Origin: Oryzias latipes
Taxonomy: Eukaryota; Chordata; Actinopteri; Beloniformes; Adrianichthyidae
Length of the DNA: 64,000 bases
Reading direction: 5' to 3'
NCBI RefSeq assembly: GCF_002234675.1
Contig: NC_019876.2
Coordinates: forward strand, 17,677,354 to 17,741,353
Numbering within the stretch: position 1 is the stretch's first letter; each line of letters begins with the position of its first letter. Under the pieces are notes generated by a model. It did not search any database and was not told the DNA's origin. It saw only the letters and a list, made by a program, of their open reading frames with translations. Below are positions 18,121 to 64,000 of this stretch, in pieces. A program made the position numbers and the translations under genes.

Positions 18121-18248
18121 TCAACTTTGTTCTTCAGGAACTTCCATCATATGAATGACAGACTTGTGCTGGATTCCAAATTCGGACAGGAACTTGGAGT
18201 CTTCATCCAATGTCTTTTCTTTGAACTTCAGGTGCAGATTTTGGGTCT
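18121..18248 (-). pseudogene. Lone UbL second exon, GlyGly lost
   Basis: An acceptor (TTTTTTAACAG) opens a 128-nt exon, exactly the length of exon 2 of the intact UbL gene at 35451-35578. It encodes LHLKFKEKTLDEDSK, then FLSEFGIQHKSVIHMMEVP, then EEQS and stop. The fold core matches the ubiquitin C-terminal half (K48 position kept in FKEK). Relative to the intact paralogue one codon is missing and GlyGly is replaced by GluGlu, so it could not be conjugated in the usual way. No first exon is visible upstream. DNA after the stop still resembles the coding tail of the paralogue at 20.9 kb. It is either a pseudogene or a non-conjugating remnant. Confidence 0.65.
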
Positions 18249-18847
18249 CTGTTAAAAAACAGACCAACAACAACGCAAGCAAAGAGTTTAAGCAAAAACA
18301 TTATTTCATTCAAGTTAAGTACTTTTGAAACGGAATTCTACCAGTTATCCTTAAAAATGACGTAACATTTAGATGACCCATTCACATAAAATTGTATAAA
18401 CATTTCTTTTCAACGTGGCCTTTTTCTGATGATGGAGAAAATATATAAAGAAAATTAAGATTAAAATAGCATTTCTGAATGTTCATTTTGTTCAAATCGT
18501 AAATCAGGAGCAGATAGCAGGCCACAAGCTCCCTGCTCCGCTCCATTCTGATTCATGTACTTGTAGACGACTAGATCCGTGAATGTCTTGGTTTTGTTTC
18601 TCGTCTGAGCTGGAATCTGGTTCAAAACTTTACGGAAGATTGGCTCCGATCTTGCTCATCATTTTTGTTGTGCCGCTAATATTAGGTTGGAGTGTGAGGG
18701 GCGGTAAGCTAGAGGGAGAAAGTATAAATTAGGAGGTCAGGAAGCAAGGCTGGGCTTACTTTGCACCAATGGTCCCGCCTAAAACTCAGAGATTAATTTC
18801 TTTAGAATTACTGCTGCTCTGCAGAAACTATTTGGTATTAACCTATT

Positions 18848-19030
18848 GTGGTGAAATGTCTCCAGTTTAAAGACAAATCAAGGGTATTACAAAAGGTTAA
18901 TATTCTCAACAGAGATGTACAGTATATGAATGAAGACTTTTTAATAGCTGTAAGACAAAAAAGAAAGGAACTGATGCCCAAAATGAAAGCAGTGCACAAA
19001 AGAGAAGATATAGCATTCCTAAAGATATGA
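18848..19030 (+). mobile_element. LINE ORF1-like remnant
   Basis: An open stretch reads YMNEDFLIAVRQKRKELMPK then KMKAVHKREDIAFLK. It resembles the C-terminal part of fish L1-type ORF1 (Transposase_22-like), where INEDF..AVRQKRKEL..MKAA...DIAYL is the usual pattern. It is likely the same element as 19360-19790 with the middle deleted. Confidence 0.6.
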
Positions 19031-19359
19031 CACATTGATTGTTCACCCTAGAACCTCAAACATTCTAGAAATGTTCAGGGTTGTGTACGTTTACAACAAA
19101 AACAGGAACAAGTGTGCAACATAAATGGTCATAAATATTATCTCTGTAAAATAACCTAATTTTCATAAAATCTCATAAAAACATTTTCTAATCTCAAAAC
19201 TAAATAATCTGAAAATAGATTGCATTTCTAAAAAGTAATATACTAAATTACGTAATTAGAACAAGCAAAAAATGGTATTATAAAAAAAACATGAAATGAA
19301 AACATAAACAATATTAAATGAGCTTGGGACATCTGGAACTGCTTGATTAAACACGGCAT

Positions 19360-19790
19360 TGGAAATAAAACATATCTTCAAACAGTAAAAATCAAAAATG
19401 AATGATGCACTACACAACTTGAATATTTTGTTGATGTTGTCCCAGATTTAGCCGCAGAAATACCAGAACAGGAAATTAATCCATATACAGACAAAATTGA
19501 AAGAATCCTCTTTTGATATTCCTTACAGCAACTAAATAAATATTGTTAAAAAAAACCAGCCTGTGACGAGACATTGTTGTGGTGGATAAAGAACAGAGGA
19601 AAGCCGTTGTGTTGGATGTGGCAGTAGCAGGCGAAAAATGGAAACATCAGGACTCAGAGAATAACTGGAGAAAGCCTGGAAAGTGAAGGTGACAGTGGTA
19701 CCTGTGGTAATTGGAGCACTCGGGACGACCCCCAAGCTGGAGGAGTGGCTACAACAGAAAGACCTCAGACCTCTCAGTCCAGAAAAGTAC
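19360..19790 (+). mobile_element. LINE reverse-transcriptase 3' remnant
   Basis: Broken frames contain KAVVLDVAVAGEKW and VVPVVIGALGTTPKLEEWL, a signature of the C-terminal part of fish LINE pol proteins. Frames shift several times. It is followed directly by a MITE. Confidence 0.65.
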
Positions 19791-61183: not shown

Positions 61184-61239
61184 AGATACTGGACTATGCA
61201 TTTTTTTCCCCCCCCCACAGTTAAATAAAATTGAATTCT

Positions 61240-63030
61240 TCATGGTCACTGTATTAATTTCCATTGGAACTTGACAAAACAGCAAACAGATGCTACATAG
61301 AGACACATTTTACTATAGAAAGAGTCAAAACAGAACAAGAAAGAAGATCAAGATTTTAATTTTACACATAGATTATAACTGAGAGTAACTAAATCTATAA
61401 TAGCAGCTGTGTATTGGTGTAAAGAGGCAGTTTCACTTTAACGGTTAATTGTCTTCCAAGAAAATGTTTGAGATCTAGCACTGCCCCCTGATATAACACC
61501 TTCACAATAAAGGCTCAGAAAATAAAAATGTATTTGTTAGAATGCCACCCGAATATTTGGGCAAATATGCATTGGCTCAGGCGGTTGAGCAGGTTGTAGG
61601 TGCATACTGGCAGCCATGCCTCTGTCCGTCTGCCCCAGGGCAGCTGTGGCTACATCAGTAGCTACCATCACCAAGTATAAATGAGGAGGGAATAATGGGA
61701 ATAATGGACACATTGTAAGCACTTTGAGCTTCTGGAAAAGCACAGATAAATCTACTCCATAATTATTAAATATGACACAGGAGCTGTTGTTTTTCATCTT
61801 TAAGGTTTTTTTCTGTTGCAGGGCCACACAATCACTCACACATTCATGGGCAACAATCAACATATGAAGCATGTTTTTGGACTGTGAGAGGAAGTCTGGG
61901 TGCTCTGAGAAAACTAAGCAAACTTGCAAATTCAACAGCAAAATCCCCCTCCCAGGATTTGAACCAGCATCATCTCACTTTTCACATAACAATTTTTCTA
62001 AGGATTTTTTTTTTTTTTTTTTGGCCTGTTTCTTTTACTTTCTCTTCTGTGTATTTTATGAGCAATCACATTTATGGTACGATTATCTGCCTGGTGATAA
62101 CTTCTCAAATGTTTGGTACTTTCCTTTTGGTAATTTTTCCTTTCCTGGATTTGCCTTTTTCTTCCTGGTGTGCGTTATTTCTGGTAATGCCAGCACATGG
62201 GTCAAAATTCAACAGAATGTTATCACAGCTCACCTGAACAGGTAGAAAAAATCCCCACCCAGAAAGCACTTGGGTCTCCGAAGAGAAATATGTGATTGGT
62301 TTGATATTTAAAGTTAATCTAATACACAGAAATGGAGCAAAAATCTGAAAAAAATGCTGACTGGGATCTTAACAAGATAATATTTAAGTATCAGAAGAAT
62401 ATAGTAACACAATTGTACTTTGTTAACTTGAGTTACTGTCAGTCTGTAGTTAAAGTCAAGGTTTAAATGTTTTTGTATTTCTTTATAAAGACATGAGATT
62501 TATTTTATCAGTGAAGAATGAATATCTAAGATCCAAACATTCCTTCAAAGGTAAACACTGTAAATTTTGTACATTGACATAACAAACTATTAAATGGAAC
62601 ATTGAGTCTAATTGGAGGCCATGTATCATTTGCAGATTAAAAGCTAAAAGCAGAACTTATAAAATGAAAGTGATTCAAAGTTTTTAGCCTTTCGTTTTTC
62701 TATACTCACAAAAACCAGAAAAACTGCTGACTCAGGCAGTCCACAGATGTCCTACTGTTCCTGAACTCAGCGCTCCACCTGTTGAAGAGCTTTAAACTAC
62801 TATAATTTTGAATCTTAAAAAATATATAAAACATATGCACATATGTTTCTTCACTCTTGACAGTAATTTCTTTATTTTTGTGATTTCTTGATGTCTAACT
62901 GTGCATTATTCTGTCATTTCCCACACACCTTGAATGCAACACAGGGAGCAGTCAACATTTTACCTGCTGTGTCATTTTCACAAAGGCTCCTATGATAGAA
63001 GGAGCTGCTCTTTTGACAACCGGATTAAGG
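61240..63030. other. Intergenic, repeats only
   Basis: It contains a SINE (61557-61765, +), a reverse SINE fragment (~61868-61975, with GATTTGAACC as the reversed B box) and a poly-T run near 62006-62022. No gene seen. Confidence 0.5.
61557..61765 (+). repeat. tRNA-derived SINE (family of 10300-10662), shortened
   Basis: It contains GCCCCAGGGCAGCTGTGGCT, CATCACCAAGTAT and TTGTAAGCACTTTGAGC, in the order opposite to the reverse copy at 10300-10662. The tRNA-like head is mostly missing. Confidence 0.7.
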
Positions 63031-63034
63031 GAAA

Positions 63035-64000
63035 ATGAGAGAACAACACGACGAGTCAACATGCTTCATTGGGGAGGTAAGACACGGTTGATGCCTGATA
63101 GATACAAGAGTTTGTAAACCTGTGTTGTTAATGTTTTATCACAGTTTGTCACAGATACTCAGTACTTTGGCTTGAAAAACCAGGGAGCAACCTGCTACCT
63201 GAACAGCGTTCTGCAGATTCTCTACATGACCAAAGACTTCAGAGAAGCTCTGAAAAGGTTTGTGATACTTTCACATTAAATATTGTCAGGTGTTAGGCTT
63301 AATTTGCCATTATTGTTTTAAATATCCTTATACTATTTGATTTGTTTTTGCCATAGAAACTCCTGTGACCCTACATGTATAGATCCTGAACTTGCAGCTT
63401 TGTTTGAGAACCTGAAAAAAAGCCTGGCAGAGACAACGGAAATTACTAAAAAGCTTGGCATTGATAGAGGTAAAGTAAAATCTCCCTTTTTAGTCTTTAA
63501 ATGAGCTGAATAAAGACAGAAAACACACTTTATGATGTTATTAGATCACTGAAACCTTATATATATATTTTTTTAGTCATGTACCATATTTTTTTTGATT
63601 AGTTGCACTGGAGTTTAAGTCGCAGGGGCCAAAAAAAATCCAAAATTAAGAAGAAAAAAACATGTACAAGTCTTTTTGGAGTGTAAGTCGCACATTTGGG
63701 AGAAAAGTGCAACGCTTCTGAACAAATTCACCAAAACTGCCGTGATGCTGCGCTCATTCCGAACATGATTCACATGTCCTTGATTTGCGTCCGCTGCCTT
63801 ATTTTCGACGCACCTCAAATTTATTTATTTTGAAGAGCTCTACAAAAGCACTGGTAAACACATCCGCACGGCAGGGTTCACGAGATCAGTTAGAGCAGGG
63901 GTGCCCAAATCCAGGCCTTGAGGGCCAGTGTCCTGTTTGTCTTCCAACCACCCTGCCATTGAAGCTCCTAAACACACCTGATCCAGGTAATCAGCGGCAG
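63035..64000 (+). CDS. Second USP gene, first three exons (runs off window)
   Basis: Exons 63035-63076 ([14 protein letters not shown]), 63145-63257 and 63357-63469, phases 0/2/1. Exon 2 carries the Cys box [20 protein letters not shown] with Cys31, followed by TKDFREALK. Exon 3 encodes [19 protein letters not shown] and ends LGIDR. Exon layout and phases after the Cys box match the complete USP at 24.6-34.9 kb (whose corresponding exons end FREAVN and LGIER), so the two are paralogues in opposite orientation at the two sides of the UbL/RBR genes. The His box and remaining exons lie beyond position 64000. A degraded repeat (63586-63790) and the left end of a hAT-like element (63898) follow exon 3. 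Confidence 0.8.
63586..63790. repeat. Degraded interspersed repeat
   Basis: GTTTAAGTCGCAGG and GTGTAAGTCGCAC are phrases of a common fish repeat (the ..TATAAGTCGCA.. type). It lies in USP intron 3. Confidence 0.45.
63898..64000 (+). mobile_element. hAT-like element, left end only
   Basis: CAGGGGTGCCCAAATCCAGG resembles hAT left ends seen elsewhere in the window (CAGGGGT...). The right end is outside the window. Confidence 0.5.

Follow-up and report, generated by a model that had tools for sequence, protein, structure and literature searches.

Genes for a eukaryotic modifier, its ligase and its protease are, to our knowledge, normally scattered in genomes. Here we describe a cluster on contig C18 of medaka (Oryzias latipes) that combines single-domain ubiquitin-like modifiers (UbLs), RBR-like E3 ligases and USP proteases; its left half occupies the 64,000-nucleotide stretch analysed (C18:17,677,354-17,741,353, hereafter the window). 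The closest described counterpart, the ISG15-UBA7-HERC5/HERC6-USP18 system, resembles it in being regulated in an interferon-type manner and in combining a UbL that ends in GlyGly with an E3 that has a catalytic Cys and with a USP; the cluster USPs are relatives of USP47 and USP18. The two differ in that the modifiers here have one UbL domain and not two, the E3s are of the RBR and not the HECT type, the tails are not LRLRGG, and the genes for modifier, E3 and protease share one cluster. FAT10 (UBD, UBA6-USE1) is another cytokine-induced vertebrate UbL; it has two domains, unlike the single-domain UbLs of the cluster, and we know of no E3 or protease gene linked to it.

In salmon, interferon-gamma induces an RBR clade named ARIT (log2 fold change 13.45 and 11.59) and a USP47-like clade named USP18-like (4.93), and USP18 is stated to act on ISG15, according to Grimholt et al. 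2025 (PMC12234341). ARIT, present in salmon and other vertebrates, is described there as a short RBR-only protein annotated as RNF144 or ARI5 in fish; by this description only, it would belong to the same family as the cluster RBRs, but its RBR structure is called typical, whereas the RING1 of the cluster proteins is not. The cluster USPs, akin to both USP47 and USP18, would likewise fall into the interferon-induced USP18-like clade by description only; unlike that clade, the cluster has seven copies with catalytic exons, several of them with long open tails. The portion of the paper at hand contains no mention of a linkage of ARIT to a USP or a UbL. As far as its available text goes, a review from 2026 on the interferon genes of fish does not use the term RBR, and it presents the finTRIMs as interferon-type E3 genes that have expanded specifically in fish (PMC13030082); these are one family only, in contrast to the three enzymatically complementary families expanded jointly in the cluster.

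The initial annotation knew of no named system of this make-up. This holds for the UbLs and for the linkage, since literature searches, judged from titles and the starts of abstracts, returned no report of a UbL-RBR-USP cluster or of such UbLs, whereas the RBRs and USPs seem, by description, to have been provisionally named in salmon. The close LOC numbers of two trout genes, LOC110500498 (RNF144A-A) and LOC110500501 (USP47-like), suggest that they are neighbours. Both stand in a table on parasite infection in trout, with values of 5.2 and 3.1, read without their units and direction (PMC8467531). In a trout single-cell study, LOC110500498 and polyubiquitin-like genes are listed among those that a virus stimulates in three or more cell populations (PMC11258392).

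Organization of the cluster

Gene models were built from stop-to-stop open reading frames (ORFs) and spliced by hand, families were assigned by Pfam profile, and the flanks were fetched and searched exon by exon. The cluster extends about 77 kb beyond the window and spans ~123 kb in total (C18 about 17.695-17.818 Mb). It holds 26 loci, namely nine UbL (L1-L9), nine RBR (R1-R9) and eight USP loci (U1-U8), which are intermixed and lie on both strands. Defining residues are kept in 18 loci, and the other eight (four UbL, three RBR, one USP) are broken or partial. Two pairs are arranged head to head, L3/R1 with 676 bp and L9/U6 with 547 bp from ATG to ATG, and U3 and R6 are probably head to head as well. 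Within the window are five UbL loci (three intact, two remnants), five RBR loci (three intact, two partial) and two USP loci. The RBR count and the three intact UbLs agree with the initial annotation; of the three broken UbLs that it listed only two remnants were found, and of its two USPs one indeed has a complete catalytic domain, whereas the second, called partial, is cut solely by the window edge.

Confinement of the three families to one locus

Each family was searched against the genome (734,051,031 bases in 25 contigs); the search scores the best candidates only, so that match counts are lower bounds. The RBR last-exon query gave at least eight matches at E <= 0.001, all eight inside the cluster. 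With the USP query, at least 32 matches were obtained at E <= 0.01, of which 25, including the 23 best, lie inside the cluster; among the seven outside, three loci resemble USP47, USP7 and USP40 by motif. For the UbL query (at least 26 matches at E <= 1), 12 matches, including the nine best, are inside, 13 fall in arrays of the polyubiquitin type (C14 and C12), and one lies on C11; the one C14 array that was read is ubiquitin. A search for E2 enzymes at E <= 0.001 gave 66 genome matches and none on C18, where short exons might escape.

Since the best members of each family are found only at this locus, their co-location is not due to chance. The proposal of three co-located families is thus borne out, Pfam profiles placing the genes under PF00240, IBR_1 and UCH in the searches that had been suggested as a check. 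Genetically, the locus is very probably one confined, co-duplicating and co-regulated-looking cluster.

Ubiquitin-like genes

The UbL loci of the window are:

18124..18300, minus strand: L1, remnant, second exon only, without GlyGly
22423..23008, minus strand: L2, two open exons (about 22843-23008 and 22423-22609), 21-residue extension after GG
35451..36875, minus strand: L3, intact, exons 36731-36875 and 35451-35578, end VPGG-L
51755..51895, plus strand: L4, remnant, second exon, tail missing
55357..55911, plus strand: L5, intact, two exons, end VHGG-GLRH

Over the whole cluster L2, L3, L5, L8 and L9 are intact, and L1, L4, L6 and L7 are remnants or broken. With joined exon pieces, L3 (E 3.7e-12), L5 (3.1e-11) and L9 (2.4e-6) score above the PF00240 cut-off, and L2 (1.6e-5; 25.0 bits vs 25.4) and L8 (3.6e-5) just below it. 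The cluster UbLs consist of a single ubiquitin domain, without the second domain and the LRLRGG end of ISG15. The intact copies have 31-36% of aligned residues in common with ubiquitin and all share one insertion. All five retain GlyGly and K48, and the tail before GlyGly diverges, residues 72 and 74 differing from ubiquitin in every intact copy. L8 stops exactly at GG; the other four carry 1 to 21 residues past it.

RBR-like E3 genes

The RBR loci of the window are:

37552..37900, plus strand: R1, partial, exons 1-2, head to head with L3
42083..48870, plus strand: R2, intact, exons 42083-42170, 47143-47243, about 48082-48255 and 48414-48870
52279..53655, plus strand: R3, intact, exons 52279-52369, 52491-52591, 52940-53098 and 53191-53655
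59102..60267, plus strand: R4, intact, exons 59102-59192, 59308-59408, 59562-59720 and 59812-60267
60752..61183, plus strand: R5, partial, last exon, 5'-truncated

Beyond the window R6, R7 and R9 are also intact, and the six intact proteins are about 260-272 residues long. IBR_1 is above cut-off in all four last exons of the window (E 3.8e-7 to 1.5e-9), spliced R3 being barely at the cut-off (27.1 vs 27), and the RING2 core with its catalytic Cys is present in all six intact RBRs. Relatives of solved structure are weak matches to pieces of ARIH1 and Parkin; R2, for instance, aligns weakly to the ARIH1 RING2 chain (E 0.005). The RING profile has no match in spliced R3, and the RING1 region of the intact proteins retains a C-x-H and a later Cys pair, which, in the usual RING layout, would form one of the two zinc sites. 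"RBR-like, IBR-RING2 E3" is the safe label for these proteins. A predicted structure of exon 4 (IBR-RING2; four window copies) was set aside, its mean pLDDT of 47.6 being too low for use.

Two of the RBR loci carry further peculiarities. A Copia-type long terminal repeat (LTR) element with a long ORF lies in intron 1 of R2 (42291-47076); the copies of its 260-bp LTR show 100% identity, which indicates a recent insertion, and R2 is still intact by splicing. In R8 (window-equivalent 96925-98633) two Cys are lost, one of them the catalytic residue of RING2, and exon 1 contains a stop; the last exon is 93% identical to that of R4.

USP genes

The USP loci of the window are:

24567..32460, minus strand: U1, with Cys box, QQDAAEY exon, zinc-finger halves, His box and a long C-terminal tail without Pfam match
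63118..64000, plus strand: U2, first exons, the remainder lying past the window at window-equivalent 65.6-66.7 kb

The UCH profile, run on the exons of U1 and U2 only, matches the joined U1 exons at E 8.5e-32. Seven of the eight USP loci have catalytic exons, with the Cys box, QxDAxE, all or most of the CxxC zinc-finger halves and the His box; the second zinc-finger half of U7 was not found by the search, and U4 is a fragment. The nearest solved relatives are USP47 (1.8e-19) and then USP18 (1e-15), with USP9X (2.6e-15) close behind. Several of the USPs run into long open tails; the two scanned, belonging to U5 and U6, gave no match in Pfam. In the tail of U7 (window-equivalent 131546-135001, C18 about 17.809-17.812 Mb) an 84-base tandem array sits in an open frame of 1152 codons.

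Duplication and selection

Self-comparison revealed that window 33-60 kb is collinear with window-equivalent 70-98 kb, non-coding matches included. The partners are L3/L6 with an adjoining 712 bp at 85%, R2/R6 (950 bp, 85%), L5/L7, and R3 and R4 with R7 and R8, and gene order between the blocks is mostly preserved except for one USP/UbL swap. These collinear matches indicate that, as it seems from the sequence, at least one multi-family block was duplicated in addition to single-gene tandem copies, in line with the tandem duplication originally supposed. The synonymous divergence (dS) between gene pairs ranges from 0.04 to saturation, too uneven for one duplication event.

For intact pairs with finite dS, the ratio of non-synonymous to synonymous divergence (dN/dS) is 0.08-0.30 in RBR last exons, 0.11-0.36 in USP exons and 0.18-0.54 in UbLs, and pairs with the broken R8 give 0.28 to 0.66; these values are rough, because many deep pairs are saturated. 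A dispersed repeat of ~200 bp occurs in and around the cluster (window 19797-19994, 33714-33915 and 50669-50881), and may have helped unequal exchange.

Upstream elements

Since the salmon paper reports induction, the cluster was searched for interferon-response elements. The promoter set comprised the 13 of 26 loci with an identified start (five UbL, seven RBR, one USP), outside which stood the remnant or broken L1, L4, L6, L7, R5 and R8 and the seven USP loci whose first exon was not found. Elements in the window are:

37466..37477, plus strand: interferon-response-type element of R1, 9/10
41993..42004, plus strand: interferon-response-type element of R2, 9/10
52177..52188, minus strand: weaker interferon-response-like element of R3, 8/10
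55251..55262, plus strand: interferon-response-type element of L5, 9/10
36944..36951, no strand assigned: TGACGTCA, a CRE-type site of L3, 76 bp upstream of its ATG

Within 150 bp upstream, the extended consensus GAAANNGAAA[CG]T scores at least 9/10 in ten of the 13 genes, covering all three families, compared with 7.4% and 8.0% of 3000 random 150-bp windows in two draws (Mann-Whitney p 7e-7); its [CG]T ending is partly post hoc, the upstream sequences having been viewed before the consensus was written. Nine of these ten elements sit 74-114 bp upstream. Shuffled versions of the extended consensus reached a mean of 0.7 and a maximum of 4 of 13 in 300 trials. The textbook consensus GAAANNGAAACT is matched at 9/10 in five genes against a background of 3.9% (Mann-Whitney p 3e-6). 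An interferon-response element in the promoter, as in ISG15-type genes, is thus present as sequence in ten (extended) or five (textbook) of the 13 genes. The bare 10-base core is exact in three of 13 genes within 150 bp (background 3.6%) and within 250 bp (6.2%); with at most one mismatch it occurs in 12 of 13 at either distance (backgrounds 36% and 51.6%). As the members of a family do not count as independent cases, one gene per subfamily was also taken (36 choices), which left five to seven of seven with the extended and two to five of seven with the textbook consensus. By distance, the bin of 151-300 bp upstream has 0/13 and the other bins 0-3, apart from one farther bin given below.

Strict gamma-activated sites (GAS, TTCYNRGAA) are absent from the 150 bp that precede each of the 13 starts, with no GAS enrichment; the loose GAS pattern gave 114 matches and the NF-kB pattern 17. 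A site of the cAMP-response element (CRE) type with at most one mismatch lies at -66..-90 in four of the five intact UbLs, as against 0.8% of 25-bp windows drawn at random; this find is post hoc, having been spotted by eye before testing. It occurs at nearly equal distance from the ATG in UbL promoters of both subfamilies (also window 55277-55284), and none with at most one mismatch lies within 250 bp in the seven RBR promoters. An X box of the major histocompatibility complex type at L3 was discarded, as the search pattern contained the L3 sequence itself.

Flanking genes and other features

The left neighbour of the cluster is OXA1L (window 11399-11809, E 4e-23 to solved OXA1L). At window 14120-14635 is an OXA1L-type exon, named by eye only and without Pfam match. 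On the right the cluster is bordered by a gene with low-density lipoprotein (LDL) receptor class A repeats, presumably LRP10-like. At the far left of the window (323-622), a 100-bp unit is present in three tandem copies. No Pfam match at 0.01 was found in the three ORFs scanned (the U5 tail, the U6 tail and window 35746-36231); 74 unassigned ORFs of at least 95 residues, low-complexity ones omitted, were judged by eye, so a further small gene in the cluster is possible.

A putative conjugation pathway and its alternatives

The initial annotation had read the locus as one dedicated conjugation system with the logic of ISG15. The families, their confinement and duplication, the conserved GlyGly and catalytic residues and the upstream elements favour this reading, and the presence of interferon-response-type elements upstream of all three families makes the ISG15-like analogy stronger. 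We propose that infection or interferon would switch on the UbL, RBR and USP genes jointly via the elements near their starts, if induction takes place in medaka as presumed. As the translation of every intact UbL but L8 runs on past GlyGly, protease trimming is proposed, and a cluster USP would probably perform it. Cellular E1 and E2 enzymes may then activate the UbL, a cellular E2 being invoked because no E2 match lies on C18; the RBR would receive the UbL on its RING2 Cys and hand it to targets, from which the USPs would take it off. The parallel copies might represent diversified sets whose members are gained by duplication and lost again, as would happen in a pathogen-driven arms race.

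Several observations weigh against such a pathway. R72 of ubiquitin is replaced by D, K, T, K and S in the five intact UbLs, which makes activation of the UBA1 type doubtful. The canonical eight-ligand pattern of RING1, the usual dock of the E2, is present in none of the six intact RBRs, in a check where the acceptor choices of R2, R6 and R9 fall a few residues short. With a non-canonical RING1 and no Arg72, classical E1/E2/E3 handling cannot be assumed. Among the promoters, 0/13 have a perfect textbook GAAANNGAAACT element, L3 and R4 lack a good element, R3 scores 8 and the L2 match is A-rich; the worst subfamily choice leaves the textbook consensus at 2/7 (p 0.03), and the bin of 301-450 bp upstream also has 5/13. 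In salmon, the ubiquitin-like genes other than ISG15, namely those that cluster with UBB, UBC, UBA52 and RPS27A, show no significant induction (PMC12234341).

Weighing both sides, the most likely account is that the cluster forms a dedicated interferon-type conjugation pathway with fast-evolving, locus-specific parts, for which we consider the chances about even. More tentatively, and somewhat short of even chances, it may constitute a second fish interferon-type modifier pathway parallel to ISG15, with diversified processed UbLs, RBR-like E3s of reduced RING1 and partner USPs encoded at one block-duplicating locus between OXA1L and the LDL-receptor-repeat gene, where modifier, writer and eraser would co-evolve in sets joined by physical linkage.

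It is rather unlikely that the RBRs and USPs act on ubiquitin or ISG15 and that the UbLs are separate interferon-type genes with nothing in common with them but location and local regulation, the locus then being an immune-gene cluster and no pathway. The kinship of the USPs to USP47, USP18 and USP9X, the action on ISG15 ascribed to USP18 in PMC12234341, and the lack of an E2 match on C18 are all consistent with it, but comparable UbL relatives are found nowhere else in the genome, multi-family blocks were duplicated together and GlyGly is kept in five of five intact UbLs. We regard it as improbable that the UbLs stay unconjugated and instead modulate ubiquitin or ISG15 signalling by binding to the RBRs and USPs, whether as decoys or as free regulators. 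The non-ubiquitin residues at tail positions 72 and 74, the extensions past GG and the non-canonical RING1 would suit such a role, but the invariance of GlyGly in intact copies and the termination of L8 at GG argue against it. A tandem array in decay and without joint function, suggested by the eight broken or partial loci, is very improbable given the 18 loci with defining residues, the dN/dS values, which stay under 0.55 wherever an intact pair has a finite dS, and the enrichment of upstream elements.

The reduced RING1 raises the question of how E3 and E2 make contact in such RBRs. For ARIT, the recently named and strongly interferon-induced RBR of fish, the cluster offers candidates for both substrate and eraser. 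Altogether, a locus that holds all three families, with close relatives nowhere else and a common response element, would provide a rare view of a UbL pathway evolving as a unit.

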